Below, in pieces: positions 1,172 to 17,673 of a stretch of DNA of 20,526 bases; position 1 is the first letter of the stretch, and each line of letters starts with the position of its first letter. Location of the stretch: positions 1-20,526 of IMG/VR virus record IMGVR_UViG_3300045131_002641; one strand, written 5' to 3'. The notes under the pieces are model-generated. The model worked only from the letters and a program-made list of their open reading frames with translations, was not told the origin of the DNA and made no database searches. The translations under genes and the position numbers were made by a program. This DNA comes from a virus.

Positions 1172-1813
1172 CTAAGCGGTTTTTCGGCGAGCTTCTCGGG
1201 CTTTTGCGGCCGCAGATATTTTCGCGCGGGCCTCGGGCGAGTGCTTTCGGCCGAGGTTGGATTTCTTGAGCGTTTCTCGGGTTTTTGCGGCCGCGGATAG
1301 CTTTGCGCGAGTTTCTGCAGAGTGCTTTGAGTGGGGCCTTCCTCTTTGTGCCTGTGACAGTTTTTTGCGGGTCTCAAGAGAGGCTTTCTGGCCTTGGCGT
1401 GCTTTAGATATTTTTGCGCGGGTCTCGGCAGACATCTGTTTGCCCGGTCTTCCGAGTCGAATCTCTGACATTTTTGCGCGGGTGGCACAGGAGCAAGTGT
1501 GGATTGAATCTCCGCCGCCTTTGAGGTTGAATCCGCAGGCGGGGGTTTGGCTGTTAAGCCGGTTGATCCAATACAGCTCTCGTTCGTTTAAGTTCTCAAT
1601 GGGGGTCAATTCAAGAGTGGTGTGTTCAAAGGCTTCTTCGCCGTAGGTGTTAAAGGCGTTTTGTAGGTGCGGGTTTCGGTGTCGCCCTAAACGTAACTTG
1701 TTAAAATGAGCGTATTTTCGCTTTTCAATTTCTATCGACTGCCCGACATAAACTTTTCCGTTCCCGGTACATTTTATAAGATATATACCACAGCTCATCC
1801 GAGTAACGTGCAT
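1172..1813 (-). CDS. GIY-YIG homing endonuclease with NUMOD3 repeats
   Basis: A 213-aa, probably freestanding, homing endonuclease. The GIY-YIG nuclease core spans about residues 8-100. It shows G9-I10-Y11, then K-V-Y22-V23-G24, an Arg in EKRKY (R32) and the conserved Glu in NERELYWI (E79), matching the catalytic layout of the family. Residues 109-213 hold about five repeats of the form (S)xETRAKxSxAxxG, the NUMOD3 DNA-binding motif that gives sequence-specific contacts. I chose the ATG at 1813 because AGAAAGG lies 9 nt upstream. A TTG at 1834 or an ATG at 1798 are alternatives. The gene sits between the E1-like gene and the partial leftmost gene, just beyond a terminator, as expected of a mobile intergenic insertion. 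The family assignment is firm. Whether the enzyme is active, and its target, are not visible. Confidence 0.93.
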   Translation of the reverse strand: MHVTRMSCGIYLIKCTGNGKVYVGQSIEIEKRKYAHFNKLRLGRHRNPHLQNAFNTYGEEAFEHTTLELTPIENLNERELYWINRLNSQTPACGFNLKGGGDSIHTCSCATRAKMSEIRLGRPGKQMSAETRAKISKARQGQKASLETRKKLSQAQRGRPHSKHSAETRAKLSAAAKTRETLKKSNLGRKHSPEARAKISAAAKAREARRKTA

Positions 1814-1836
1814 GAGAGGGAGCCTTTCTGTCAAAC

Positions 1837-1879: not shown

Positions 1880-2590
1880 TTACGCCTTAACGGTCATTAG
1901 CTGTTCATAGGTGACAGTGCGAATCCCTGTGCGGGTACTGGAGTACTCTACAGGAAGTGCGTTACGTACCGCTTCATCATCCAAGTCATAATCCTGTATC
2001 TTTAAAAGATACAACTGGATTAATTGCATGCAGAACATTGCAGAGGCTGAATTGGCGTGAGCCGATTGCGGGGCTGCAGCCAGTGCGCCGGCATCATTGC
2101 ACGGCGGCCGCGTCGGGTCATCAGACTTGTCAGTCAGAATCTCCGGATAGCGAATCCGCGGATCGGCGGCAGTGCCTTTGAACAGCGGATCGTAGTAGTA
2201 CGCATCCGCACTCCAGAGTTCATTGCCTCCGATAACCGCGTAGCTGCCGGTCTGATCACACTGTTCGAGCACGGCAAGCCGGGCTACGTGGTTATCGACC
2301 AGGCAGATGATGAAGCTTTCCGGGTCAATCGCCGTCGTGTCGGTAAACCATTCGGCAACCGGCGTGACGGGGAACGGGCAGAAACCCTGGAGACCGGCGG
2401 CAAGCGTTTCCGCTTTGCCGGCACCGATCGCTTCGCGGGTGAAGAGCTGACGCTCCACATTCCGGGCTTCGAGCTTATCGCGGTCGATGATGACCAGCTC
2501 CTGAACCTGTTCGGCCTTTTGTAAAGACCGGGCGAGAACCGGAAGGAGGTAGCTCGCACCTCCTCCGGCTCCGATACAGTATATTTTCAT
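1880..2590 (-). CDS. E1-like (ThiF/MoeB family) adenylating enzyme
   Basis: A 236-aa protein with the ThiF/E1 Rossmann fold. These enzymes use ATP to adenylate the C-terminus of a ubiquitin-like protein and often pass it to a Cys as a thioester. Visible motifs are the glycine-rich nucleotide loop GAGGGAS (7-13), the strand-end IIDRD (D36, D38), the N44-xx-R47-Q48 signature in ARNVERQLF, GAGK (K59) and the LVDN motif with D99. A candidate catalytic Cys, C164 in RPPCND, lies in the crossover region. No MoeB-type CxxC zinc site is obvious. The length is close to PRTRC-type ThiF proteins. The start at 2590 follows GAAAGAACAAAAACC, a weak form of the local initiation context. It lies 16 bp after the 276-aa gene and is the last gene of the E2-unknown-E1 operon, so the likely partner is the E2-like protein. 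The fold assignment is strong; the specificity is inferred. Confidence 0.9.
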   Translation of the reverse strand: MKIYCIGAGGGASYLLPVLARSLQKAEQVQELVIIDRDKLEARNVERQLFTREAIGAGKAETLAAGLQGFCPFPVTPVAEWFTDTTAIDPESFIICLVDNHVARLAVLEQCDQTGSYAVIGGNELWSADAYYYDPLFKGTAADPRIRYPEILTDKSDDPTRPPCNDAGALAAAPQSAHANSASAMFCMQLIQLYLLKIQDYDLDDEAVRNALPVEYSSTRTGIRTVTYEQLMTVKA

Positions 2591-2606
2591 GGTTTTTGTT
2601 CTTTCG

Positions 2607-3437
2607 TTACGAGTTGGCGTGAAGCGCCTTGCTGATTACAAGGCGAAACAGTTTGAGTGAGGGTTTCTTCGCTTCGAGCAGCGCGCCGACTCCTGTTTTC
2701 TCCCCGTAAGAGGAGCAGAAGTACAGCAGAATTTCGTAGCGGAAGAATATCTCGGGGAGATACCCGGTATGGAACTGCGGATAGGGGGTGTTTTCGAGAA
2801 TCGACTGGACGTGGTGGGTCAACCGGGTGTTGAACTCCGTGACCCGTTCCTGCTGCTCGTATTTCCGGGACATTGTGTAATCCCAGATTGCTCCCAGCCG
2901 CACCAGGATTCGCTCCTGCTTCTGCAGCAGCCCGGCGAAGCCTTCACGCGAGACGATCCGGTTAATAATGGGCTCGCGTAAAGCGGCCCACGCATGAACT
3001 GGATTCGAATCAATTCGGATGTCCTGGTTAGGGGGCAGCGGCCGTTCGTTGTAGCTGTTGGTCAGAAACCGGATAACGGTGTTCGCGGGGCGGTCTGCCG
3101 TTTCGGTAAGCCAGGTAATCAGGTCGAGTCCGGCTCCGGTCATACGCAGATAGTCCATGGGATGCGTCCAGCGTTCGGAGTTTTCTCGAATCATGTCGAA
3201 GGTTTCCCCGTCGAGCTGCAGAGTCGTGACCAGGCCGGCAATCCATTTGTTCTTGCTGAGGGCCAGCTCGGTCTGCGCGATGTTTTGCGGCGCAGCCCGT
3301 CTCGCGGCCTGATGTGCTTTTGAATATCCAGTCTTCTGATTGAGCACGATCCGGCGTCCGGGGGAAACCCAGACGTCGGTTCGGGGAAGCGCCGCAACGG
3401 CGGTTTGCAGAGAGTCAATTATTGCCTGGTTAGACAT
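2607..3437 (-). CDS. Unrecognised 276-aa protein between E2-like and E1-like genes
   Basis: I do not recognise this protein. It is soluble and mostly helical by eye, with no signal peptide or membrane segment. Aromatic-rich stretches occur near the C-terminus (FHTGYLPEIFFRYEILLYFCSSYGE), followed by a Lys-rich tail. There is no JAB, RING or DUF-type zinc motif and only one Cys. The start is well fixed: ATG at 3437 is preceded by AGGAGGT at 6 nt and lies 2 bp after the stop of the E2-like gene. Its stop is 16 bp before the E1-like gene. This tight packing between the two enzymes implies work in the same pathway. Possible roles are a target adaptor, a substrate, or a structural partner of the E1/E2 pair. 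None of these is shown by the sequence. Confidence 0.88.
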   Translation of the reverse strand: MSNQAIIDSLQTAVAALPRTDVWVSPGRRIVLNQKTGYSKAHQAARRAAPQNIAQTELALSKNKWIAGLVTTLQLDGETFDMIRENSERWTHPMDYLRMTGAGLDLITWLTETADRPANTVIRFLTNSYNERPLPPNQDIRIDSNPVHAWAALREPIINRIVSREGFAGLLQKQERILVRLGAIWDYTMSRKYEQQERVTEFNTRLTHHVQSILENTPYPQFHTGYLPEIFFRYEILLYFCSSYGEKTGVGALLEAKKPSLKLFRLVISKALHANS

Positions 3438-3439
3438 GA

Positions 3440-4375
3440 TTAACCTCCTGCTCCGGTTGCCATCTGAGCCCGCGTTTCATCTTCAGCGTTCCGGACAGGC
3501 TGGACCGCACGGGTGTCGCGGTTCCATGGCCGGTAGACGGCTTCCAGCGGGACTTGAGAGGTGGAAATCTCCCAGTCAGCACAGCCCGAGAAGGGCAGCG
3601 GTTTGGCGCTTGCAGCGTCGAAGCGGACGAAACGGCGGTACTGCGCCATCCGGATGGAGTTGGCGCCTTCGAGCAGGTCACGGTTCCAGGCCGTATCCGC
3701 CCAGGTCTTCAGGAAGTGCCGGGTGGATGTGACCAGTCCCGCATGTCTCTGCGGATCGAAGAATCCGCTGGCTTCGTAGGCCGTCCCGGTGCATAGATGG
3801 CAGTCGGGATACAGGTTTGGAAGCGGCAGGCTTATGCAGGTGTTGCGGCTGATCGAGAAGCAGGTCAGGTAATATTTGGCTATCCCGCGGGTGAGTTCTT
3901 CTGCTGAAGCAACTAGATCCCCCGCTCCGGGCAGTTGAATGTCCGAGTCCGGGGGGTTTCGGCGGTATTCAACGTGGAAATGCACGATCAGATCTTCGGG
4001 GATCGGCAGTTTTACCGGCGCGCCGAGGGTGAATTCACCGGAGGCTTCGCCGTTCCAGGGGCAGAAGAAATGCTTGCCTGAGTTGACGTTCGGGTCCTGT
4101 CGCAATTCCCATTGAGTCATGAACGGGATGTGGTCAAGCTGGATGGAATTCCAGTAGTACATATACTGCCCGATCTTCTGCCGAAACGCCGAAACGCCGT
4201 CGCCCAGGTTATACAGGCAGCGGACATCCGGTCCGGCGGAGGCCGCAGCGGGTTCGGGCGAAACGGCGAGCAGCTGAGTGATGATCGCGTCGGGATTGGT
4301 GATGAACTGTTCGGTGACAGTCTGCCGGATAATCTGTCCGGTTTCAGTGAGAAGGTGAATTATTCTTGAGCTCAT
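3440..4375 (-). CDS. E2-like protein of the PRTRC protein B / Prok-E2 family D type
   Basis: A 311-aa protein. Its C-terminal half carries an E2-like core: a strand LPLPNLYPDCHLCTGT (about 183-198) with the probable catalytic Cys C195 (C192 also near). It is followed by an HFLKTW segment (about 220-225) in the place where family D E2 proteins have an F-x-H-like element. Known PRTRC protein B members share the pattern of a Pro-rich strand, Asn-Val/Leu-Tyr, then Val/Leu-Cys-x-Gly. E2 enzymes accept a ubiquitin-like protein from E1 as a thioester. The N-terminal about 160 residues are less conserved, and the C-terminal 20 residues are polar. The start at 4375 has no good ribosome-binding site of its own. 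It overlaps the stop of a 21-codon ORF (ATGA), so translation is probably coupled. The 276-aa gene follows after 2 bp and the E1-like gene after that. The assignment rests on motif and context, not on a search. Confidence 0.72.
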   Translation of the reverse strand: MSSRIIHLLTETGQIIRQTVTEQFITNPDAIITQLLAVSPEPAAASAGPDVRCLYNLGDGVSAFRQKIGQYMYYWNSIQLDHIPFMTQWELRQDPNVNSGKHFFCPWNGEASGEFTLGAPVKLPIPEDLIVHFHVEYRRNPPDSDIQLPGAGDLVASAEELTRGIAKYYLTCFSISRNTCISLPLPNLYPDCHLCTGTAYEASGFFDPQRHAGLVTSTRHFLKTWADTAWNRDLLEGANSIRMAQYRRFVRFDAASAKPLPFSGCADWEISTSQVPLEAVYRPWNRDTRAVQPVRNAEDETRAQMATGAGG

Positions 4376-4437
4376 AATAGGTGGTGTTTCTCTTGGTGTT
4401 TAGGGCTGAATACCCGGTTGCGTCCTCTTGAGGGCAT
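4372..4437 (-). CDS. 21-codon ORF coupled to the E2-like gene
   Basis: This short ORF encodes MPSRGRNRVFSPKHQEKHHLL. It has a strong ribosome-binding site (TAAGGAG, then AACCCC, then ATG) that overlaps the stop of the 70-aa gene. Its own TGA overlaps the ATG of the E2-like gene as ATGA. The peptide is very basic. It shares its MPSRxRN start with the 112-aa protein at 5825-6163. It may be a real small protein, or mainly a device that delivers ribosomes to the E2 start, which lacks a good site. The geometry is seen directly; function is unknown. Confidence 0.5.
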   Translation of the reverse strand: MPSRGRNRVFSPKHQEKHHLL

Positions 4438-4447
4438 GGGGTTCTCC

Positions 4448-4660
4448 TTACGGGGTTGTTTTAGCGCAGTTGAACGCGACGTCTCCCATTCGGATATTTA
4501 TTTTTTCTGGATTGGAGGTGCCGATGATGATCAGAGCTTCGGAGCTCTGGAGGTCGGAGATCAGGCCGCGGACGATGTCTTTATCTTCTTGATAAAGCAC
4601 TTTGCCGGCGCGCATATCTTCGATTTGCTTTTTGCGGGTGGTCGCATTGGGTGTTGCCAT
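4448..4660 (-). CDS. Unrecognised 70-aa protein, first gene of the E2/E1 operon
   Basis: A 70-aa protein with a polar, basic N-terminus (TTRKKQIEDMRAGK), a helical middle, and a likely beta hairpin at the C-terminus (EALIIIGTSNPEKINIRMGDVAFNC). The start ATG at 4660 has AAGGAACAACC directly before it, matching the local initiation pattern. The stop codon TAA is part of the ribosome-binding site of the following 21-codon ORF, so the gene is in one transcript with the E2-like, 276-aa and E1-like genes. I considered whether it is a second ubiquitin-like protein. The length fits, but I do not see the VNG turn or a C-terminal Gly-Gly, so I leave it unassigned. Confidence 0.82.
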   Translation of the reverse strand: MATPNATTRKKQIEDMRAGKVLYQEDKDIVRGLISDLQSSEALIIIGTSNPEKINIRMGDVAFNCAKTTP

Positions 4661-4931
4661 GGTTGTTCCTTGGGTTGGGGTTTTGGTGTCGTTTTGAAAA
4701 AGGGCGGGGGCCCGGAGATTCTGAAAGAGGGATGAGCGGAGTCGCGATTGTCCGGGATACAGTGACCCCTTTATCGGTCTTAGATCGCGTCATCAACGGC
4801 TTCATCGAATCTCCCACGTTCTCCTGAGTCGGGGCCCCCATATAAAGTGGAGCCTCTCGATGCTTTTGGCAACATAGCCAGACAAAAAGTCTGTTCCGGT
4901 TCCCGGAGCAATGAAGCACCGGGCGAGAGGC
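4661..4931 (-). other. 271-bp gap upstream of the E2/E1 operon
   Basis: This stretch lies between the terminator of the ubiquitin-like gene and the 70-aa gene and is where the operon promoter should be. On the - strand a TTGCCA box and a TTTATA box occur near 4870 and 4843, with a spacing longer than ideal, so I do not call them a promoter. A small hairpin (CAGAC, five A, GTCTG; 4879-4893) is visible. Open frames here overlap the terminator or the 70-aa gene in another frame and look spurious. Confidence 0.5.
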
Positions 4932-4967
4932 AAAAAGAAATACCGCCGCCCGAGGGTGGCGGTATTT
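4932..4967 (-). terminator. Rho-independent terminator after the ubiquitin-like gene
   Basis: A perfect 10-bp inverted repeat (AAATACCGCC at 4938-4947 with GGCGGTATTT at 4958-4967) is followed on the - strand by TTTCTTTTTG. It begins 20 bp after the stop codon of the ubiquitin-like-domain gene. It separates that gene from the 70-aa/E2/E1 operon, at least in part. Confidence 0.85.
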
Positions 4968-4986
4968 GGATCAAGCAACCCGAAGG

Positions 4987-5700
4987 TTATTTGATGTTTG
5001 CGTCGAAAGTCCACGCCTTGAGCGGGTCGGCTTTCAATGCTTTGGCCAGCACGGAGCGTTGTTCAGGCAGCGTGAGGCACATTTTGAGATCCGCTTCGAC
5101 GGCGCGGGTCCAGGCCGCAGCGGCCGTTTCCTGTTTGGAAAGGTTGACGCGCAACGGGTGGAGCTTTTCTTCCGCCGCTTTGGCAATGGCGTCGAGTTCT
5201 TCGCGCACATTCACAGGGATCTTGAGGTCGTTGTCCAGGTATTCCCGGGTCACAACGGCTTCGATGATGCCATCGACGTATTCCGTGAAAGCCTTGCAGC
5301 CTTTGAGCATTTCGCGCTGGGCTTTGACCGTTTCCTTGCGGATGACGCTTTCAGTCTGAGCAAAAGCTTCGTAGATCGGTTCGAGAGCCGCCTGAGCGGC
5401 TGATTGAACCAGACGCAAGGTTTCATTGTTCACCGGCAGCGGACGAAGCTGCTGATCGGCGTTCATGAATCCGGTTTCGGCGGATTTGCGACCAGCTTTC
5501 TTCACCAAATCAATTCGCATGTTCGGTGTGATGGAACTCCCCGTATCGACGAGCTGGCCGTTGACGCGAGGGTCAACTTGAGACGGGTCGAAATTCAGGA
5601 CGGCCTGGATGGATGTATCGTTCAAGACCTGTCCGATGGAACGGAATGAGTCTTCCGGTTTGTTGACGCTGTTCCCAACGCCATAGGTAATTGTGAGCAA
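4987..5700 (-). CDS. Protein with N-terminal ubiquitin-like (beta-grasp) domain and helical C-terminal region
   Basis: A 237-aa protein. Residues 1-72 fit a ubiquitin-like/ThiS-MoaD-type beta-grasp. There is a first hairpin (LTITYGVGNSVN), a helix start with IGQVL (22-26), ND-S-IQAVLNF, a strand ending in RVNG (45-48), and a final strand RIDLVKKAG (62-70). The VNG turn and the late strand are typical of this fold. There is no C-terminal Gly-Gly. Instead the chain continues after G70 into about 165 residues that look largely helical. This resembles a fused or precursor ubiquitin-like protein. Translation starts at a TTG at 5700, supported by AAAGGAG 6 nt upstream. It lies upstream of the E2/E1 genes and ends in its own terminator, so it is the natural candidate substrate of that pathway. 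The fold call is by eye. The C-terminal region is unrecognised. Confidence 0.68.
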   Translation of the reverse strand: MLTITYGVGNSVNKPEDSFRSIGQVLNDTSIQAVLNFDPSQVDPRVNGQLVDTGSSITPNMRIDLVKKAGRKSAETGFMNADQQLRPLPVNNETLRLVQSAAQAALEPIYEAFAQTESVIRKETVKAQREMLKGCKAFTEYVDGIIEAVVTREYLDNDLKIPVNVREELDAIAKAAEEKLHPLRVNLSKQETAAAAWTRAVEADLKMCLTLPEQRSVLAKALKADPLKAWTFDANIK

Positions 5701-6747: not shown

Positions 6748-7401
6748 TTATTCTGGATTTACTGTTTTTTCTTCGGACGATTCGGCTGATTCGTCAGCTC
6801 CACCCGTAGGGAGATCTTGCGTTTCAGCCGTTTCGTCGGGAAGGAAATCAAGGAAGGACTGAGCGACCTCGGCCATCAGTTTCAGGACCTGGACGGTTAT
6901 GGGATGGTTTTCAGGTTCAGGTTTGACCTGTAGAGCCCGGGCGATGTCGGCGCAGATGAAGAGCGTTTTCTGGGCAATTAGGTCAGTCAGGCGCTTTTGG
7001 ACCTCGTCGAGCTCCCAGAAGGGGGCAGGAAGCAGCGCAGGCGCCCCGTCAGTCGGTTTTTCGGTGGGATGCCCTGTTTGGATCAGGTTAATGATCTCTC
7101 CGAGGGTTGTGGGGTTAGGAACGGCTGGATTGGCTTCGGTGGTGGGGGTGAAGTTGTGGAATATGAAGTCGAGCTGCGGATTGAGGATCGGCGGCACGGC
7201 GGTTTTGTTGTGTACGTGGGTCAAATACGCATTGACGAAAGCCGTCTCGGCGATTACGGGAGCTAATACGGAGCAAAGCAGATCAGCCTGGTCATGTATT
7301 GAAGGGGCGATTTGAGCGGTAAATCTGCGCAAAAGGGCGCTTCTGGTGGTCAAATCGTGTGGATTCTGGGGGGTCTGTTCAGTGAATTTGAGGGTAGACA
7401 T
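6748..7401 (-). CDS. Unrecognised 217-aa acidic-tailed protein
   Basis: A 217-aa protein. The ATG at 7401 is preceded by CTAAGGAAAAAAACC. The N-terminal half is mostly helical (RSALLRRFTAQIAPSIHDQADLLCSVLAPVIAETAFVNAYL). The middle is Pro/Thr-rich with a conserved-looking LGEIINLIQTG segment, followed by a second helical region (LDEVQKRLTDLIAQKTLFICADIARAL). The last 30 residues are strongly acidic (Glu/Asp/Ser-rich). There is no signal peptide or membrane segment. It is the first gene left of the repeat-rich region at 7402-7818 and would be read from any promoter there. I do not recognise the family. Confidence 0.85.
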   Translation of the reverse strand: MSTLKFTEQTPQNPHDLTTRSALLRRFTAQIAPSIHDQADLLCSVLAPVIAETAFVNAYLTHVHNKTAVPPILNPQLDFIFHNFTPTTEANPAVPNPTTLGEIINLIQTGHPTEKPTDGAPALLPAPFWELDEVQKRLTDLIAQKTLFICADIARALQVKPEPENHPITVQVLKLMAEVAQSFLDFLPDETAETQDLPTGGADESAESSEEKTVNPE

Positions 7402-7455
7402 GGTTTTTTTCCTTAGGTTGGGGTTAATTTTTTACACGAATCGAGGTCAAAAAGA

Positions 7456-7490
7456 GGGGGTAAGGGGGGGTTTTGAGGGGCAAAAAGGGG
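7456..7490 (+). repeat. G-quadruplex motif
   Basis: Four G-tracts of 5, 7, 4 and 4 residues are separated by loops of 3, 6 and 6 nt, which satisfies the usual intramolecular G-quadruplex pattern on the + strand. It lies 55-89 bp upstream of the start of the 217-aa gene, on the template strand for that gene. Confidence 0.75.
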
Positions 7491-7744
7491 TGTTTTGACA
7501 GTCAGGTGACGATCTTTTTAGGAGGTTGTCACCTTGTAAGTTGTTGCTGGTCAAAGGTATAGGCAAAGCGGTGACGAAGTGACAGAGAAAATGGAACTCT
7601 CGTCCGGGAATTCGGGGAGGGCAGAGAGGTGGTGGTGGTGTCAGTCCTTCTATATATATATATTTTTTTAAACTCAAGAGATAATTATTTACTGTCACCT
7701 TGTCACCATTATTGAGTTTAGGCCTGATAGTATTGGGTGTGACA

Positions 7745-7777
7745 GTGGTGACAATGTTTGAAAATCATTGTCACCAC
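7745..7777. repeat. 12-bp perfect inverted repeat built from the GTGAC motif
   Basis: GTGGTGACAATG at 7745-7756 is the exact reverse complement of CATTGTCACCAC at 7766-7777, with a 9-nt A/T-rich spacer. Both arms contain the GGTGACA motif repeated elsewhere in this region. Two further TGTCACC copies follow directly. The size suits a dimeric DNA-binding protein or an extruded hairpin. Confidence 0.8.
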
Positions 7778-7818
7778 TTTGTCACCTTGTCACCGTTTTG
7801 TTCCCAATTTTGAGAATG

Positions 7819-7968
7819 TCAGGCTGGTACGGCGAAACGACGCAGGGCGAATCCGCGGGGCGTCTTTTGACCTAACATGATGTTAATCATGGGTTTAGGG
7901 TTGATCGGACGGCCTTTTTCGGTTTTTTGGATGTACATTTGGCATGAAGCAAAGTCGAGGTTTTTCAC
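7819..7968 (-). CDS. Unrecognised 49-aa basic protein with GTG start
   Basis: A 49-aa protein (starts VKNLDFASCQMYIQKTEKGR, ends FALRRFAVPA). The GTG at 7968 is directly preceded by AAAAGGAAAAACC, the same initiation context as the larger left-arm genes, which is why I prefer it to the longer TTG-start frame reaching 8034. It is basic and lacks recognisable motifs. It follows the small membrane protein at 7991-8170 after 22 bp and is probably on the same transcript. Confidence 0.6.
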   Translation of the reverse strand: MKNLDFASCQMYIQKTEKGRPINPKPMINIMLGQKTPRGFALRRFAVPA

Positions 7969-7990
7969 GGTTTTTCCTTTTCGAGTCTTG

Positions 7991-8170
7991 TTAAGCGAAT
8001 TTATCGTGGCCGGTTTTTGAGTTTCGGTCTCCAATGACGAAGGCTAGAATCTCCAAAAGCACGACGATTGCGGCTCCCAGCCATATTCCGCTGAGGTATA
8101 TCAGGTTGGCCCAGTAGAATCCTGCAGATAACAGCAGGCTTGATATGACAATTATGATCAGTGATCTCAT
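7991..8170 (-). CDS. Small membrane protein, 59 aa, two transmembrane segments
   Basis: A 59-aa protein starting MRSLIIIVISSLLLSAGFYW. The ATG at 8170 has GAAAGGAAAACC directly before it. Residues 4-18 and about 24-46 (LIYLSGIWLGAAIVVLLEILAFVI) are hydrophobic, giving two membrane spans joined by a short loop. The last 13 residues are polar (GDRNSKTGHDKFA). It could be a phage superinfection-exclusion or holin-like protein, but nothing specific points to either. It lies downstream of a highly structured stretch and 22 bp upstream of the 49-aa gene. Confidence 0.75.
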   Translation of the reverse strand: MRSLIIIVISSLLLSAGFYWANLIYLSGIWLGAAIVVLLEILAFVIGDRNSKTGHDKFA

Positions 8171-8174
8171 GGTT

Positions 8175-8637
8175 TTCCTTTCAGTTTGAAATAGATCCGC
8201 CTCATCCCCGCCAGCCTTGAGGCGGGGGAGAGACTTCGGGGTTTAAGCCCGCTCCGGGATGTCCGGCTCCTTGCTGTTAACATATAAGGCCAAGGAATCG
8301 CTGGTGAGAGCGTACTAGACGCTCTGTGCAGCCGAAATTGTCGAGGTCTTTCCCTCGCGTCATCTTGTTCCGGCTTCTGGTGAAGAACACCGCGTTGAGC
8401 ATCTCCGGTTAAGCAACCGCCTTTTGCCATCTAAGGTCGGTCATGGGGCTCCCTGGACGAATACGTCGGGGATGGCGCTCAGCAAAGAGATTCTTCTCCA
8501 TCCGCCTCAATACGCTGCGTCCTAGAAAGGCGTTTTGAGGGGTAGAGAAGCCCGATGCCGGTGAAAGCATCGGGGTGAAGGACTCGGGCTAGGTCTCCTA
8601 CGGCGTCCTGTCGTCGATTGGGGTTTTCGGGTTCTGC
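8175..8637 (-). ncRNA. Candidate structured RNA, series of perfect hairpins
   Basis: About 460 bp without a supported gene but with consecutive perfect stems and short loops: CCCCGCC/GGCGGGG (8206-8227), AGAGCGT/ACGCTCT (8307-8325), CGAGG/CCTCG (8342-8357), GGTG/CACC (8379-8391), CGGTT/AACCG with a 4-nt loop (8406-8419), and CCCGATGC/GCATCGGG (8551-8574). The last is enclosed by AGCCCG/CGGGCT and GTAG/CTAC arms (about 8542-8600). The number of perfect stems exceeds what I expect by chance. It lies between two - strand gene pairs, so it could be an independent RNA or a long 5' leader of the small membrane protein gene. A short ATG frame at 8443 with a GGGAG site stops after 11 codons inside one of the hairpins. 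No RNA family was recognised. Confidence 0.45.
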
Positions 8638-8814
8638 CTATGGCGGGGTAGGCGAGATTGGGGGTTTAGACTCATATTTTACGCCCAGCATTTTCTGCTG
8701 GGAGCTTCGAGTGGCATTTAAGCCTTTAACGATTAAGGCGGCCGTATCTGCTGTGGGTACGCGGCAGATGATTTCTTTGCGTTTTTTAGGGGTGCGTTTG
8801 AATACGTCTACCAT
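8638..8814 (-). CDS. Unrecognised 58-aa protein
   Basis: A 58-aa protein: MVDVFKRTPKKRKEIICRVP, then a stretch with TADTAALIVKGLNAT, ending in a Pro-rich tail. Its ATG at 8814 lies two bases after the TGA of the 59-aa basic protein, and there is no strong ribosome-binding site of its own, so translation is likely coupled. It has a basic N-terminus and a probable short beta-alpha unit. No family is recognised. Codon pattern and the tight spacing make it credible despite its size. Confidence 0.6.
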   Translation of the reverse strand: MVDVFKRTPKKRKEIICRVPTADTAALIVKGLNATRSSQQKMLGVKYESKPPISPTPP

Positions 8815-8816
8815 TT

Positions 8817-8996
8817 TCAGGCTCGCTGCATTTTGAGTTTTCGGTTGATTCTGCGGGTTCGCGCTTCTATGCGAATAGTTCCCAGTCGCAGGTATTTAGA
8901 GGTTTCGCGTTTGAGCCGGCGTTCTTTGCGCTTTGCTTTGAGTGCGTTTTTCTGGGGTTTTGTTCGTCCCCAGCCTACAATATTCATCAGTTTCAT
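8817..8996 (-). CDS. Unrecognised 59-aa very basic protein
   Basis: A 59-aa protein starting MKLMNIVGWGRTKPQKNALK. About 40% of its residues are Lys or Arg, concentrated in KAKRKERRLKRETSK and RTRRINRKLKMQR. The start at 8996 is preceded by CGGAGAAAAACC. Such a composition suits nucleic-acid binding, but no fold is recognisable. The 58-aa gene follows after 2 bp, so the two form a small operon whose transcript would run into the structured block at 8175-8637. Confidence 0.65.
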   Translation of the reverse strand: MKLMNIVGWGRTKPQKNALKAKRKERRLKRETSKYLRLGTIRIEARTRRINRKLKMQRA

Positions 8997-9130
8997 GGTT
9001 TTTCTCCGGGTTTTGTTCCTAAAGGGAGGGGCTTTAGCGTATAGCTGCGACCTGTATTGAGTGCGATTTGCACCCTCAATGGTCTTTGGTTTGCCCCATA
9101 AATTGGTTTTTGATGCGGTTTAATTGCAGA

Positions 9131-9206
9131 TTTCGCATCTGTTGCGGTATTTCGCATCTGTTGCGGTATTTCGCATCTGTTGCGGTATTTCGCATCTGTT
9201 ACGGTT
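9131..9206. repeat. Four tandem copies of a 19-bp repeat
   Basis: The unit TTTCGCATCTGTTGCGGTA occurs at 9131, 9150 and 9169 exactly, and at 9188 with two changes. A weaker echo (GCGGATTTCGCAGACGC) follows. The unit length is close to two helical turns and is not a multiple of three, so the repeat is not coding. Tandem units of this size are typical of iterons or operator arrays. Confidence 0.92.
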
Positions 9207-9474
9207 TGATTGCGGATTTCGCAGACGCATTCCTCGCGTCGCGCACGCGTCTATATTATGCGACGTTCCGCCGAGCCGCTATTCATCGGCCTATCGTGAC
9301 GAAAGTACACTTTTCAAATATTATGCGACGTTGATTTACTGGATATCCACGCCCCGCCGATCCGCCGTATAGACGATTCGACGATTAGTCCGCGGTTTCC
9401 CGCCTCCGGCGGCTTAGAAGTTGAACTGGTGAATGTATGGCGGGCGTATTCGCCTGCAATACGTTCACACTTAC

Positions 9475-9495
9475 AAAAGAACGCCGAAGGCGTTC
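9475..9495 (-). terminator. Rho-independent terminator downstream of the 113-aa gene
   Basis: On the - strand GAACGCC, TTC and GGCGTTC form a perfect 7-bp stem followed by TTTT. It lies 59 bp past the stop of the 113-aa gene and just beyond the longer hairpin at 9512-9541. Confidence 0.7.
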
Positions 9496-9511
9496 ATACC
9501 TTATCGAGGCA

Positions 9512-9541
9512 GACAACAACCCGCTATTGCGGGCTGTTGTC
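9512..9541 (-). terminator. Long hairpin after the 113-aa gene
   Basis: A 13-bp stem (9512-9524 with 9529-9541) and a 4-nt loop lie 12 bp after the stop codon. The only imperfection is a G-U pair when read on the - strand but an A-C mismatch on the + strand, which supports a - strand transcript. There is no T-tract, so it may protect the 3' end or act together with the terminator at 9475-9495. Confidence 0.6.
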
Positions 9542-9553
9542 TCGCCGTCTCGG

Positions 9554-9895
9554 CTATTCGGCGGACTGTGCGACAGCCTGTGCCGTGGCGATGGATGCGC
9601 GCAGCTTGCGTGCAGCTTTCGCAGCGGCTTTGGCGTCTACAGACAGACGGTAGTCGTCGTAGCCTTCAGCGTTGACACGGTGACGCAGCGTGATCGGCAT
9701 TCCGTCTTCGGGAATGGCGCGCTCGAGCAGGTTGTCAACGATGTCGAATTCAGCGTCGTCCCAGACGGGTACCCAAAGCGGGTCTGTCTGGTCTTTGCAT
9801 GTGAGGATGACGTTGTCTGGACGTCCGTTGATTCCTGGGCGGAAGTCAACGCTGAGCAGTACGAGTTGGATCAGTGAGTATGCTATTGCAGGCAT
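9554..9895 (-). CDS. Unrecognised 113-aa protein
   Basis: A 113-aa protein, the rightmost leftward gene. The ATG at 9895 is preceded by AAGGAGAAACACC. Likely beta strands cover the first half (VLLSVDFRPGINGRPDNVILTC, then LWVPVWDDAEFDIVDNLLERAIPEDGMPITLRHRV). The C-terminal 35 residues are an Ala/Lys-rich helix. No catalytic motif, membrane span or signal peptide is evident. It is followed by two hairpins that should end its transcript. I do not recognise a family. Confidence 0.85.
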   Translation of the reverse strand: MPAIAYSLIQLVLLSVDFRPGINGRPDNVILTCKDQTDPLWVPVWDDAEFDIVDNLLERAIPEDGMPITLRHRVNAEGYDDYRLSVDAKAAAKAARKLRASIATAQAVAQSAE

Positions 9896-10253
9896 GGTGT
9901 TTCTCCTTGTTGTAGTGTTGTTACAGTGTAGTGCAATGGTGTGACAGGATGTGCTATTACCCTGCCTACTCTGTTCCCCTTCCTATGCTTCTGTGTGGCG
10001 TGGAGCGTGGAGCGTGGAGCGTGGAGCGTGGAGCGTCTCGTTGTGTGATGTGTGAGAGGGGGGTAGTGGACACGGCGAGAAACAGGGTATGGCTTATATA
10101 TATATAGCGGTACCGCTCGCGCAACTGAAGGGGGTACCGTCCCTCCGCCGTTTCGTCCCCTCGCCGAACCGCCGTAAAAAATTTTTCAGAAAAATTCTCG
10201 ACTCCCCCTCGAAAAATATGTTCCCCTCGCGCACAAGAGGGAGAGGAAGCAGT
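9896..10253. promoter_or_regulatory. Divergent intergenic region between left and right arms
   Basis: This 358-bp stretch separates leftward and rightward genes and should carry the promoters of both arms. It holds the 7-bp tandem repeat at 10000-10034, a TA-alternating tract around 10093-10105, and the palindrome GCGGTACCGC followed by a second GGTACC about 20 bp on. I cannot name a promoter with confidence. A frame starting at 10089 would extend the terminase small subunit upstream, but the ribosome-binding site at 10240-10250 argues against it. Confidence 0.5.
10000..10034. repeat. Five tandem copies of GTGGAGC
   Basis: The 7-bp unit GTGGAGC is repeated five times without change at 10000-10034. 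It lies in the divergent intergenic region. Perfect short tandem arrays often vary in copy number between isolates. Confidence 0.95.
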
Positions 10254-11024
10254 ATGGATCTCACCAAATCGAAACCCGCCGGCAAAGGCAAAAACGCGGA
10301 GAAGAAGTCTTGCGCACGCCCTTTGTCGGACAAAGCCCGCCGTGCCGCTAAACGTCAAAACGACGAACCGGCGGTAGAATTTAAGTCCGAGAACGAACAG
10401 TTTTCAATTTCAGGCAACAAAATGGCCGGTTTGCCAGTGTACAAGAACCACAAAACGTCGGTTCGTGATCACGTCGAGAAGTTGAAGGTCGACATACCGG
10501 CCCCGCGCATCGTGGATTTGGAAATTTCAAACCCCGTGCTGGCCCAGATCACCGATGAAAAGCTGCGCGTGCGGCTGCAGAGCTTCTTTCAGGTTTTGCT
10601 CGAAGGCGGCAAACACAAGATTGCGCTGGAGGACAACGACTTTTCGTGGAACCACATTCAGAATTTGCGCCACAAGTACGCTGGATTGCATGAACTTTGG
10701 ATTCAATGTCGGGACATCGGGGACGAATACCGGCAGGTTTTGCGCTCGGACGCGGCGCATGAGCGGGCGGTTGAGGGGGTTGAGGAGGCAGTATTCAGCG
10801 CGACGGGCAAATGCCTCGGGTCGCGCCGGGTTTACTCGGACCGGCTGCTTGAGCTGCTGTTGAAGGCGGATAACCCGGATAAGTTCTCAGAGCACAAGAA
10901 GGTGGACATCCGCGGAACCGTGATCAATTTGACTACCGGATTTGATCGCAACGCTCTGCGGGAGGAAGCTGCCCGCGAGATTATTGAGGCTGAAGCGACT
11001 GAAAGGGAGGGCGACCATGGATAA
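10254..11024 (+). CDS. terS: Probable terminase small subunit
   Basis: A 256-aa protein that probably recognises phage DNA and hands it to the large terminase. Residues 1-75 are Lys/Arg-rich and polar. Residues 95-170 are helical. Residues 196-211 (DRLLELLLKADNPDKF) match the DxxLxxxLKAxxPxxY/F motif common in phage terminase small subunits, followed by a short strand region (VDIRGTVINLTTGF). I chose the ATG at 10254 because GAGAGGAAG precedes it at 4 nt; the longer frame from 10089 has no such site. It is the first gene of the rightward head block and overlaps the next gene by 8 nt. The terminase large subunit follows four genes later. The call rests on one motif plus position. Confidence 0.72.
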   Translation: MDLTKSKPAGKGKNAEKKSCARPLSDKARRAAKRQNDEPAVEFKSENEQFSISGNKMAGLPVYKNHKTSVRDHVEKLKVDIPAPRIVDLEISNPVLAQITDEKLRVRLQSFFQVLLEGGKHKIALEDNDFSWNHIQNLRHKYAGLHELWIQCRDIGDEYRQVLRSDAAHERAVEGVEEAVFSATGKCLGSRRVYSDRLLELLLKADNPDKFSEHKKVDIRGTVINLTTGFDRNALREEAAREIIEAEATEREGDHG

Positions 11025-13999: not shown

Positions 14000-16363
14000 A
14001 TGCAGAAAACAGGCGTGGGACCAAATCCTGACCAAGAGATGCTTCTGGGAGATCGCGGGCTGATCCGGGTTAAAACCGCAGCCGGCGTGCAGGCGGAGCG
14101 TCAGCGGAACAAAGATCGTGCGATTGCCCCTTCGGTTCTAAAAAACTCTACGCTTGCCACCTACGTTCGGGACATCTACACCGAAAATCGCGACTACCGG
14201 ATTTCTTCGGGAACTGAAGATCAGCTGCTCGACAACCTCCGCCGCCGTCTCGGGGAGTACCCTGACGAGAAACTCAAAGAGATCGCCAAGCAGGGCGGGT
14301 CTGCAATTTTTGCCGAAATCACGGGGGTTAAATGCCGCAACGCCGAGTCCTGGCTCTCCGATGTGTTTTCTCCTGACGACGAAAAATCCTGGTCGCTTCA
14401 GCCTACTCCGATCCCCGAGCTGCCCAAGGAGGTCTCCGCCGAGATTGAAAATCTTGCTGCACAGTTCGCCCAGCAGAAGGCGATGGAAATGTCGGCTGCC
14501 GGGCAGCCCGTATCTCCCGGCCAGATGCAGCAGCTTGAAACCAATGCCCGGCCGGTCATTGAAAAGTTTTTGAAAGATAAGCTCCGCAAGAAAACGGAGC
14601 AGCGGGTGAAGCGCATGGAGCGCACCATGTACGACCAGCTCCTTGAAACGGGCTGGGATGAAACCATGGACCAGTTTATTTTTGACCTGACGACGTTCCC
14701 CACGGCGGTCCTGAAAGGGCCAGTCATTCAAATGCGCAAGACGCGCCGGTGGGAAATCATGGCCGACGGGAAATCCGACCTGATTGTGGAGCGCACTCCC
14801 GTTCCGGTGTTTCTGCGGGTCAGCCCGTTTGACTGTTACCCCTCTCCGCTTTCCGAGGGGGCTGAAGGCCCCGGACCTTTTGTTGAACGGTTGCATCTGA
14901 CGAGATCCTCGCTGGAGGACATGAAGGAGTACGACGGGTACGATGCAGACGCGATTGACCGCATTCTCGATGATGCAGGGATCGTTGCCGCCCCCTTGCT
15001 CGCCGCCGAGCCGCTGGACAACGATCGCAAGGATATCGAGTCCTCGCCCCAGGGAACTCCGGAGGATGCTCCGAAAGGCTCTGATGAGATCCTCGGGCTT
15101 GAATTCCACGGATTTGTTCCCGGTAAGCTGCTGCGCGAGCACAATATTTTAAAAGACAACGACGACAAGCCTGTTCGGGATACCAAGCAGTACGCCGTTG
15201 AAGTGGTTGTCATCGGAACGGAGCTGGTCTATGTCAGCCTGAACTCCGATAAGCTCGATCGCCACCCCTACAGTGCGACGAGCTGGTCCAAGGTTGCCGG
15301 GTCGTTCTGGGGCGAATCCATCCCTCAGCTGCTCGCTCCGGTGCAGGATGTCTGCAATGCGGCGCTCCGGGCGCTAATAAACAACATGGGATTTTCCTCC
15401 GGCCCGCAAGTCGCCGTGACGGATATTGACCGGGTGCCGATCAACGAAGACCTGACCAGCGTGTACCCGTTCAAGTTGTGGCAGTTCACCAACGAGAACC
15501 GGCTGACGTCTGATCCAATCAAGTTTTTTGCGATCCCGTCCAACGCCAACGAGCTGTACGCGATTTACGAGAATTTTAAGAAACAGGCGGATGACGATTC
15601 CGGGGTTCCGGCCTACGCCTACGGGAACGAACGCTCTGCCGGGGCCGGACGCACGGCTTCCGGGCTGTCCATGCTGATGACCGGGGCGTCTCGCGGGATT
15701 AAGAAAGTGATCCGCAACGCCCACCGTGACGTGGTCCGCCAATGCCTGATCAGGCTTTACGACTGGAACATGCAGTTCCTGGACGATCCGGAAATTAAGG
15801 GGGATGCTGACATCGTGGCAGTAGGCGCGGTTGCTGTTCTGTCCCGCGAACAGGCCTCTACCCGGCGCATTGAACTGCTCACCATGGCGAATAACCCGAC
15901 CGACACCGCGATCTTCGGGCGTAAGAACCGTGCGGAACTCTGGCGCCAGACGCTGGACACGCTGGAATTTGACGGCGACCGGTACATCCTTACTGACGAT
16001 GAGATCGACGAGCTTGAGAAGAAGGAGCGGCAGGCGCTGGAGAACCAGCAGAAAGCTCAGCAGGCCGTTGCCGAGGCTCAGGCGCAGGCGGCCCAGCAGG
16101 AAATCCAGATCAAAAAACAGATTGCGGACCAGAACTACGAGATTGAGCAGTTGAAATTGCGAGTCAAGTCCGGGGAAAGCGCCGGCAAGTCCGCGATTGA
16201 TCAGGAGAAGATCCGCACCGACCGGATGAAGCTGGACCAGCAGCAGGAGCAGTACGACCTCGAAGAGATTAAGAACACCGCGTTGGAGGCACTACAAGAT
16301 GATGAAAGCACGAATAACGGAACCGGTACAGGAAGCCCTGGCAGCGCTCCGGCCAAATCGTAA
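14000..16363 (+). CDS. Portal protein
   Basis: A 787-aa protein that forms the dodecameric ring at the capsid vertex through which DNA passes. Its position directly after the large terminase, its size, and segments such as FLRVSPFDCYPSPLSEG and WSKVAGSFWGESIPQLLAPVQD (shown only in part) fit the large portals of P22-like and related podoviruses. The region around 520-560 (AGAGRTASGLSMLM) matches a motif often seen in such portals. The C-terminal about 120 residues are a Gln/Glu/Lys-rich coiled coil (EKKERQALENQQKAQQAVAE), as in portals with a barrel extension. The start at 14000 follows TTAGGGGTACAGCAC. The next small gene begins inside its 3' end. Confidence 0.92.
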   Translation: MQKTGVGPNPDQEMLLGDRGLIRVKTAAGVQAERQRNKDRAIAPSVLKNSTLATYVRDIYTENRDYRISSGTEDQLLDNLRRRLGEYPDEKLKEIAKQGGSAIFAEITGVKCRNAESWLSDVFSPDDEKSWSLQPTPIPELPKEVSAEIENLAAQFAQQKAMEMSAAGQPVSPGQMQQLETNARPVIEKFLKDKLRKKTEQRVKRMERTMYDQLLETGWDETMDQFIFDLTTFPTAVLKGPVIQMRKTRRWEIMADGKSDLIVERTPVPVFLRVSPFDCYPSPLSEGAEGPGPFVERLHLTRSSLEDMKEYDGYDADAIDRILDDAGIVAAPLLAAEPLDNDRKDIESSPQGTPEDAPKGSDEILGLEFHGFVPGKLLREHNILKDNDDKPVRDTKQYAVEVVVIGTELVYVSLNSDKLDRHPYSATSWSKVAGSFWGESIPQLLAPVQDVCNAALRALINNMGFSSGPQVAVTDIDRVPINEDLTSVYPFKLWQFTNENRLTSDPIKFFAIPSNANELYAIYENFKKQADDDSGVPAYAYGNERSAGAGRTASGLSMLMTGASRGIKKVIRNAHRDVVRQCLIRLYDWNMQFLDDPEIKGDADIVAVGAVAVLSREQASTRRIELLTMANNPTDTAIFGRKNRAELWRQTLDTLEFDGDRYILTDDEIDELEKKERQALENQQKAQQAVAEAQAQAAQQEIQIKKQIADQNYEIEQLKLRVKSGESAGKSAIDQEKIRTDRMKLDQQQEQYDLEEIKNTALEALQDDESTNNGTGTGSPGSAPAKS

Positions 16364-16511
16364 TTTTGAGGTTTTTTTAGGGTGGTTGCGGCAGAATCTT
16401 GAGGAGACCCGCATCCAAAATGATGATTTAAGCGGGGAAGAGTTGACACGCAACCAAGGATGTGCCAAGACGTTGGCTAAGATTTTAAAGACCGTCGATG
16501 GAGCGGAATAA
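16299..16511 (+). CDS. Unrecognised 70-aa protein overlapping the portal gene
   Basis: A 70-aa protein starting MMKARITEPVQEALAALRPN. It begins 65 bp before the end of the portal gene in a different frame and has GGAGG 9 nt upstream. It is helical (FEVFLGWLRQNLEETR, then CAKTLAKILKTVDGAE). Small proteins in this position are common between portal and scaffold genes in phages, so I regard it as real. Function unknown. Confidence 0.72.
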   Translation: MMKARITEPVQEALAALRPNRNFEVFLGWLRQNLEETRIQNDDLSGEELTRNQGCAKTLAKILKTVDGAE

Positions 16512-16611
16512 CAGATCGCGCTGCCGGCTCGAAAGATCCCCGGCGGCATGTGAGAGGAAGCAAAAAGCAGCGAACCCCTGAGAAATCAGGCTCGCAAGGA
16601 GACTGAAGAAT

Positions 16612-17673
16612 ATGGGTAAAAATACCATACCCTCCGCAGTGCGGAGACAGGACGAAGCAGCAGAGACAGCGCTGAATGCACTTGAGGCCGCTCGCTCTCG
16701 TGAAGCTCAGGGGGATACCCCCGAGCCTCTTGAGAACCCCGGGCAACCCCCCAGTGCGTCAAACCGTGATACTCTTCTGGACGACGCCGAACAGCCGGCA
16801 CCTCGGCCCGCTGTGGCCCCCGACGCGCCCCGCGCGCCAGAGGCTAAAGATAAATCCGAGGAAGGTGAAACAGTAAGTAAGGCGGATTTTGACCGGTTAA
16901 AACACCGGTTCGATGTCCTCCAAGGCAAGTACAACAGCGAAATCCCGCGAGCAGCGTCTCGTGTGAAGGAGCTGGAGCGGGAAAACGATGAGCTTCTGGT
17001 TAAGGTGGAAACGGCCGCGCACGCGCAGCCTGCTCCGAAATCCGAAGCACATAAGAAGTACCTATCCACGGAAGAACAGGCCGATCTCGACGAAGGCTAT
17101 GCAAATATCCAGGGCAAAATGGCCCGGGGGGTTGCAGAAGAAGTCGCCGAATCGCGCACAAAGGTCTTGGGAGACCAGGTGAAAGAGTTGAAGCAGACCC
17201 TTGAGGATTTGCGGGCGACTCAGATCCAGGCCGCCCAGAGCCGTTTCTGGAAAGAAGTGGATGCTCTATCTCCCGGCGCAGAGGTGGCTAACACCTCAGA
17301 GGACCCGGAATGGGTCGCCTTTTTGGGTGGCGTTGATCCGACCTCTCGATTGACCTATCGCGAGATTGGTGTCGCAGCGGTAAATCGCGGCGATGCTGAA
17401 GGAGTTGCCAACCTGTTTGACCTGTTTAAGAGCTCTACTGGAGTTGACCCGGCGGCCGCGCGAAAACGCGTGCTTGCTCAGGTTAAACCCGGCACGGCTC
17501 CATCAGCCCCCCGGACGCAATCACGACCTGTCGGACCGATGATCAACGAGTCGGAGATTAAGCGGTTTTATCAGACCGCCGCCTCCACGCGGATGTCGGA
17601 CGCACAGATCGCTGCCAAGGAAGCTGATTTTGATCAAGCGGCGCTGGAGGGTCGCATTAGGTTCGGCAAGTAG
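16612..17673 (+). CDS. Probable capsid scaffolding protein
   Basis: A 353-aa protein between the portal and major capsid genes, the standard place for a scaffold. Residues 1-90 are low-complexity and Pro/Ala/Glu-rich. Residues 90-125 and about 150-215 form predicted coiled coils (FDRLKHRFDVLQGKYN, VKELERENDELLVKVE, DQVKELKQTLEDLRATQ). The C-terminal part ends in a basic segment (AALEGRIRFGK) as in scaffolds that contact the coat protein. A ribosome-binding site (AAGGAG) lies upstream of the ATG at 16612. No protease motif is visible. The role is inferred from composition and position. Confidence 0.75.
   Translation: MGKNTIPSAVRRQDEAAETALNALEAARSREAQGDTPEPLENPGQPPSASNRDTLLDDAEQPAPRPAVAPDAPRAPEAKDKSEEGETVSKADFDRLKHRFDVLQGKYNSEIPRAASRVKELERENDELLVKVETAAHAQPAPKSEAHKKYLSTEEQADLDEGYANIQGKMARGVAEEVAESRTKVLGDQVKELKQTLEDLRATQIQAAQSRFWKEVDALSPGAEVANTSEDPEWVAFLGGVDPTSRLTYREIGVAAVNRGDAEGVANLFDLFKSSTGVDPAAARKRVLAQVKPGTAPSAPRTQSRPVGPMINESEIKRFYQTAASTRMSDAQIAAKEADFDQAALEGRIRFGK

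Follow-up and report, generated by a model that had tools for sequence, protein, structure and literature searches.

A putative phage-borne cassette for reversible ubiquitin-like conjugation

Do viruses of bacteria own machinery for the conjugation of ubiquitin-like (Ubl) proteins? The question was raised by IMG/VR record IMGVR_UViG_3300045131_002641, positions 1-20,526 (20,526 nt; hereafter the window), which is probably a fragment of a larger phage genome. A leftward block of genes on its minus strand encodes, in the order of transcription, a Ubl-domain protein, a protein of 70 amino acids (aa), an E2-like protein, a 276-aa protein (unk276, or gene X), an E1-like enzyme, a GIY-YIG endonuclease, and a gene cut by the window edge (gene Y, or g1). 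Bacterial Ubl conjugation is known mainly from host anti-phage defence, and an original prediction, made from the letters of the window, proposed that this block is a Ubl conjugation cassette borne by a phage. That proposal was upheld by the co-occurrence of its genes at loci selected by E1 only, by the fold of the Ubl domain, by profile links of the E1, E2, and JAB proteins, and by invariant catalytic residues, and we consider it quite probable that the cassette represents a phage-specific lineage of reversible Ubl conjugation system. The proposal is amended in three respects: a JAB gene belongs to the cassette, the lineage is spread widely among phages and is not peculiar to one of them, and the Ubl of the window would have to lose its C-terminal extension before it could serve as a tag.

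Recurrence of the cassette in viral genomes

Neither the window E2 nor the window E1, used as a single-protein query, matched anything in viral contigs, and E2 likewise had no match by tblastn in cultured phages. Recovery of relatives needed a degenerate DNA pattern for the E2 motif together with an E1 profile. The pattern, PNxYxDxxxxCxG, was found at 47 loci in viral contigs, from which 40 records were followed up. In 35 of them there was a single ThiF match, which exceeded the Pfam cut-off, and 19 had a terminase match; with iterated profiles, E1, E2, and JAB could be recognised in most of the pieces examined. Two groups were seen, one with the order Ubl-E2-X-E1-(Y)-JAB, which includes the window, and one with the PRTRC-like order E2-JAB-E1; PRTRC-type loci of the latter order in IMG/VR were kept separate from the window-type clade. 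In most phage cassettes, the gene between E2 and E1 was a non-homologous X gene. An Acinetobacter 'phage' moeB was dropped as a host-type metabolic gene.

Because the DNA pattern selects the E2 cysteine, conservation of this residue in the pattern survey is circular, and an E1-selected set was therefore used. The second search, whose only query was an alignment of nine E1s, covered viral contigs and 84,980 bacterial or archaeal species, each represented by one genome. It yielded 84 viral relatives (80 kept) versus 3 in the 84,980 bacterial and archaeal genomes. On the same strand and within 8 kb, the 83 E1-selected loci carried JAB (83/83), E2 (77/83), and Ubl (71/83), and all four genes were present at 38 of the 39 loci whose flanks exceeded 4 kb on each side. 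Profiles for E2, Ubl, and JAB were derived from the first survey, which shared 13 of these 80 viral records, but selection of the loci depended on E1 alone. A terminase match was found in 25 of 40 checked E1-selected records, and at 52 of the 83 loci the retrieved flanking sequence contained DNA polymerase A (query: Pfam DNA_pol_A, 1.9e-59). The four-gene kit recurs in dozens of phages, where it had largely gone unrecognised.

The original prediction saw neither ParB nor JAB genes of the PRTRC type in view. For ParB this stood, as none was found among the neighbours scanned, but JAB lies just past the edge in two relatives. One of them, IMGVR_UViG_3300002026_000339 (L008), has a terminase 91% identical to that of the window and keeps all of the window's cassette genes in the same order, with identities of 67% for Ubl, 73% for the small gene, 70% for E2, 45% for unk276, 80% for E1, and 54% for gene Y. 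The full conservation of gene order in a second phage argues that the set did not arise by chance. The E1, E2, Ubl, unk276, and small genes were under purifying selection, with a ratio of nonsynonymous to synonymous substitution rates (dN/dS) of about 0.09-0.22 and dS near saturation for some, which demonstrates gene maintenance only. Beyond the homologue of the window-edge gene, L008 encodes a 504-aa protein in which E...HHHSGMGAFQSGGD makes up a complete JAMM motif. The JAB gene directly follows the gene Y homologue in L008 (L008:8487-10001) and in the other relative, G018 (L058:5481-7115). In this 49.8-kb phage, Ubl, the domain of the small gene, E2, unk276, E1, gene Y, and JAB are collinear, and the GIY-YIG gene is absent. 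The JAMM residues H, H, S, and D were conserved in 23/23 unique JABs of the family alignment, and the motif H-x-H...S..D/N was present in all JABs of the E1-selected set.

The E1, E2-like, and ubiquitin-like proteins and their proposed roles

The three open reading frames named in the original prediction were all open at their given positions. The E1-like ThiF-fold adenylyltransferase (236 aa; 1880-2590, minus strand) matched Pfam ThiF (PF00899) at 1.9e-14, with 53.9 bits against a cut-off of 28.1, and contained the GAGGGAS, NVERQ, and VDN motifs and the candidate catalytic C164 as described. In the family alignment, G7, G9, G10 (G7-x-G-G), D36, D38, N44, R47, Q48, K59, D99, and C164 were conserved in 27/27 unique sequences. 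Those E1s of the E1-selected set that failed a strict pattern still showed the cysteine on inspection, or were truncated or frameshifted. The window-type phage E1s formed one clade apart from PRTRC ThiF (support 99/98). In Vibrio phage D69, the frame at L094:5836-6825 is open upstream of the annotated E1 start (6070) and encodes a GCGGTGS nucleotide-binding motif; the annotated start is probably too late.

The E2-like protein (311 aa; 3440-4375, minus strand) contains the predicted LPNLYPD-x-HLCTG motif, as LPNLYPD-C-HLCTG, with C195. Its residues P186, N187, and C195 show PN-x7-C spacing, with N231-x-D-L downstream. PN-x7-C is the active-site spacing of eukaryotic E2s, and it was also found in phage E2 motifs such as PNIYDTGKICTG. 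By itself, the protein had no useful match in Pfam, NCBIfam, PHROGs, or PADLOC. Profile comparison by hhalign gave a probability of 97.4% to other phage E2s (220 columns) and 94.8% to Prok-E2_D/PRTRC_B-type E2s, with 0.3% for the control; a member of the latter set matched Prok-E2_D at 3.7e-25. In the family alignment, where the cysteine was preselected by the motif, C195 was conserved in 27/27 and N231 in 26/27 sequences. In the E1-selected set, where it was not preselected, the N...C-x-G motif was present in 76/78 E2 matches. When the E2 profile was compared with the PDB, all 21 chains at E<1 were ubiquitin-conjugating enzymes, each match being weak and mostly at the catalytic motif. We infer an E2 fold from these profile and motif data.

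The Ubl-domain protein (237 aa; 4987-5700, minus strand) starts with TTG at 5700, and a Shine-Dalgarno-like AAAGGAG lies just upstream. AlphaFold modelled residues 1-70 as a beta-beta-alpha-beta-beta ubiquitin fold with a predicted local distance difference test (pLDDT) score of about 90. The best Foldseek matches in the PDB were nearly all ubiquitin or ubiquitin-like proteins, including Bacteroides BfUbb and archaeal ubiquitin (probability 1.00, E about 1e-3), and the best match in the viral structure library was an uncharacterised Caudovirales phage protein. The beta-grasp domain predicted for residues 1-72, on which the original proposal had in part been staked, was thus recovered in the model. 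Residues 71-89 form a disordered linker, with the AGRKS sequence ending at residue 73, and residues 92-223 were modelled as helical with low-to-moderate confidence.

We analyzed the C-termini of the phage Ubls. Stand-alone Ubls of about 70-95 aa, usually encoded just upstream of E2, end in ASSKA, ASSKS, ANTKN, LGQKG, or similar sequences. For 40 of the 61 unique Ubls, xxK[ASGNQ] is the very C-terminus, 18 carry 1-7 extra residues, and 3 carry 80-165 extra residues, a pattern expected for precursors. In the window, G001, and G018, the Ubl retains AGRKS and runs on for about 160 residues beyond it, so that the window protein, with its helical extension, must either be cleaved or not be the tag. 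Judged by sequence, maturation probably takes place after the xxK-small-residue motif, with JAB as the likely protease. JAB measures 504-544 aa in G001 and G018, which have extended Ubls, versus about 375 aa in phages with stand-alone Ubls, which fits co-adaptation of protease and precursor. Vibrio phage D69 encodes three tandem Ubls in one protein (L094:2268-3059), 47-59% identical and each ending in TGTKG. This polyubiquitin-like precursor is annotated as hypothetical and is near-identical in phages D181 and D148. Salmonella phage Arash encodes a 66-aa Ubl ending in TGTKG (L093:107-307) in a different frame from the annotated gp251, which is probably annotated in the wrong frame.

In the mechanism that we propose, the JAB protein, encoded just outside the window, would cleave the Ubl precursor after xxK-[small residue], here after AGRKS (residue 73), and free the Ubl from its helical extension. 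The ThiF-fold E1 would adenylate the new C-terminus and hold the Ubl as a thioester on C164; the Ubl would then pass to C195 of the E2-like protein and be attached to target proteins, from which JAB could also remove it. A likely role early in infection would be the tagging of proteins, of the host or the phage, in the service of takeover, replication, or counter-defence (the original prediction had proposed host or virion proteins as substrates, or counter-defence), and the position of the cassette near the replicative DNA polymerase in many relatives suggests early expression. Candidate targets are the host's defence proteins or metabolism, or the phage's replication proteins. We infer adenylation, thioester transfer, the cleavage site, timing, and targets alike.

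Several points weigh against this interpretation. It rests on sequence and predicted structure. A long helical region is fused to the Ubl of the window and of two relatives, where cleavage is a prediction, and, unlike ubiquitin, ThiS, and MoaD, the phage Ubls do not terminate in di-glycine. For the E2-like protein, AlphaFold gave a low-confidence model (pLDDT 51.8) that showed no E2 fold and had no informative Foldseek match. The window itself contains no JAB gene, probably because of where its edge falls, so that for this particular phage the gene is presumed from the relatives, and no E3 was identified.

Known systems and alternative explanations

Iyer et al. 2006 (PMC1779556) describe an operon type 6d that encodes a Ubl, a helical protein, an E2 in which the classical His is missing, a JAB that carries an N-terminal domain, and an E1. 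In our reading, type 6d is the plasmid PRTRC system (TIGR03735-03737; PF14460 Prok-E2_D, PF14464 Prok-JAB). Among known systems it is the closest to the phage cassette, which resembles it in having a stand-alone E1, an E2 without the classical His, a JAB with an N-terminal domain, and a small Ubl, and both PRTRC_C and the phage Ubls have (A/G/S)-x-x-K-(small) near the C-terminus. The original prediction had linked E1 and E2 enzymes of this type to PRTRC cassettes, and hhalign of the phage and PRTRC families agreed: E1 matched ThiF at 99.8%, JAB matched A at 91.6%, and E2 matched B at 78.3%, while all other pairings were below 1%. The phage Ubl gave no profile match to PRTRC_C and could not be aligned to it, so that no sequence homology is claimed; the D69 and Arash Ubls aligned with it weakly (43.8%, E=2.4e-4; controls null). 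However, the order in the plasmid cassettes examined is ParB-E-C-F-B-A-ThiF, whereas that of the phages is Ubl-E2-X-E1-(Y)-JAB, and the present cassette is phage-borne and often near DNA polymerase A. The window E1 scored 47.4 bits against the PRTRC_ThiF (TIGR03736) cut-off of 144.75, and the window E2 and Ubl had no NCBIfam PRTRC match. Among the neighbours scanned, no PRTRC match to ParB, E, or F was found, and by hhalign gene Y, unk276, and X were unlike F or E. The cassette may thus work like the 6d/PRTRC conjugation system, although by cut-offs, gene set, gene order, and phylogeny it falls outside PRTRC.

These comparisons bear on whether a PRTRC-type plasmid cassette was recently captured as a passenger. 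The distant homology of E1, E2, and JAB to PRTRC ThiF, B, and A speaks for such an origin, but the separate E1 clade, the different gene order, and the lack of ParB, E, or F counterparts speak against it, as does tblastn of E1, which gave one plasmid match among 72,556 records as against many viral loci. This explanation is largely refuted, and we consider it very improbable. A different doubt concerns the window Ubl protein, which could be a scaffold or regulator whose extension is functional and never cleaved, the rest of the cassette using another tag or having changed function in this sub-lineage. The helical extension is 62% identical between the window and L008, and the same extension is present in L057/G018, as such a role would allow. 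Yet the Ubl domain with its AGRKS end aligns with stand-alone phage Ubls that terminate there, the longer JAB fits co-adaptation with the precursor, and no second Ubl-like gene was detected in the extended-Ubl cassettes; we regard this alternative as unlikely, though it deserves some weight.

Enzymes of the ThiF fold also serve sulfur-carrier (ThiS/MoaD-like) pathways, for example in the thiolation of tRNA or cofactors, and one phage Ubl showed a weak ThiS match. Such a pathway would leave the conserved E2-like partner and the Ubl C-termini other than GG unexplained, no sulfurtransferase, rhodanese, or cofactor gene was recognised among the genes scanned, and the idea has very little to recommend it. 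MccB, the closest solved structure to E1 by sequence (E=1.7e-4), raises a further alternative, in which E1 activates the C-terminal residue and joins the peptide to a nucleotide or small molecule, not to proteins. MccB acts on a C-terminal Asn, and the last residue of phage Ubls is Ala, Ser, Gly, or Asn. However, MccB pathways, to our knowledge, use no E2-JAB pair, and Cys164 of E1 and Cys195 of E2 are invariant, which makes this chemistry equally hard to credit. Reversible conjugation to proteins therefore remains the reading that we prefer. We lean, by a small margin of belief, towards the broader view that many tailed phages run virus-specific Ubl conjugation as a standard step of infection near their replication genes, with mature tags that end in Lys-Ala, Lys-Ser, or Lys-Gly, not Gly-Gly, and that are released by JAB from tailed, fused, or tandem precursors.

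Other systems share parts of this chemistry. The bacterial defence systems Bil/Bub and CBASS Cap2-Cap3 (Hor 2024, cited in PMC12660748; PMC10097602) also use E1, E2, and JAB chemistry to conjugate a Ubl or a Ubl-like tail in bacteria; the present genes are phage-encoded, not host defence, and their E1 and E2 are separate polypeptides. PADLOC recognised only the E1 among the window proteins, plus one negligible match, and no CD-NTase. Phages lambda and T1 also carry a Ubl (TAPI) and a JAB (TAPK, JAB + NlpC), although in the account given in PMC1779556 these form a tail module without E1 and E2, whereas the present cassette is on the opposite arm from the genes for structural proteins. Bacillus phage vB_BauM_KLEB27-3, a cultured phage, has E2, JAB, and E1 in a row (gp194-gp196), but no Ubl was recognised there and its E1 falls outside the window-type clade; its record already annotates a 'PRTRC_A domain' beside the ThiF gene. 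Literature searches, which took in neither preprints nor most subscription journals, turned up no publication about such a phage-encoded cassette. Passages of jumbo-phage and Borg papers mention phage peptidases and deubiquitinase-like proteins, and no such cassettes.

If our interpretation is correct, viruses of bacteria use ubiquitin-like chemistry for their own ends and own the complete machinery. It proposes functions for families without usable annotation, namely the E2-like, Ubl, and phage JAB proteins, and provides remote relatives of the ubiquitin system that include polyubiquitin-like precursors. Related sets are carried by cultured Vibrio (D69), Salmonella (Arash), and Bacillus (KLEB27-3) phages, so that the proposal is directly testable.

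Gene layout and further observations

The rightward arm of the window carries genes for the terminase large subunit, a portal/head-tail protein, and the major head protein; the cassette occupies the arm away from these structural genes, as had been noted originally. Spacing within the block is operon-like, with 2 bases between E2 and unk276 and 16 bases between unk276 and E1. Three of its genes, all on the minus strand, have no assigned function and gave no useful match in the libraries searched. A 130-aa protein of L058 contains a domain homologous to the product of the small gene (70 aa; 4448-4660). Gene X, or unk276 (276 aa; 2607-3437), lies between E2 and E1 and is also kept in L058. Gene Y (2-1078), which is cut by the window edge, likewise has a homologue in L058.

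The gene at 1172-1834 (minus strand) encodes a GIY-YIG/NUMOD3 homing endonuclease (TIGR01453, 6.1e-30; GIY-YIG, 1.2e-10) and is not part of the cassette function. It is 84% identical in L008, has a dS below that of its neighbours, and is missing from the collinear cassette of G018/L058. This distribution indicates that it is probably a mobile intergenic insertion. Two further HNH-endonuclease-like open reading frames, judged by sequence, flank the cassette in L008 (L008:1359-2168 and 10669-11019). Between the gene arms of the window, 2.7 kb (7402-10088) are without a convincing gene, and the highest GC skew of the window was observed here (0.32 at 7001-8000).

Some records from the surveys are of uncertain nature. 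A contig of an Opitutus metagenome-assembled genome carries window-type Ubl, E2, E1, and JAB genes that look frameshifted (L101:10001-12856 and 16108-17322), plus a second E1 and E2, and is perhaps a decayed prophage or a phage contig. PRTRC-like E2/JAB/E1 cassettes were seen in six IMG/VR records classed as viral (G013, G016, G020, G023, G025, and G035), which may be prophages, plasmid-phages, or misclassified plasmids. In Salmonella phage Arash, the E2-like gp248 and the E1-like gp246 (L093:1519-2274 and 3499-4539) are annotated as 'structural protein'; if this label rests on mass spectrometry of virions, both enzymes may be packaged within the virion.

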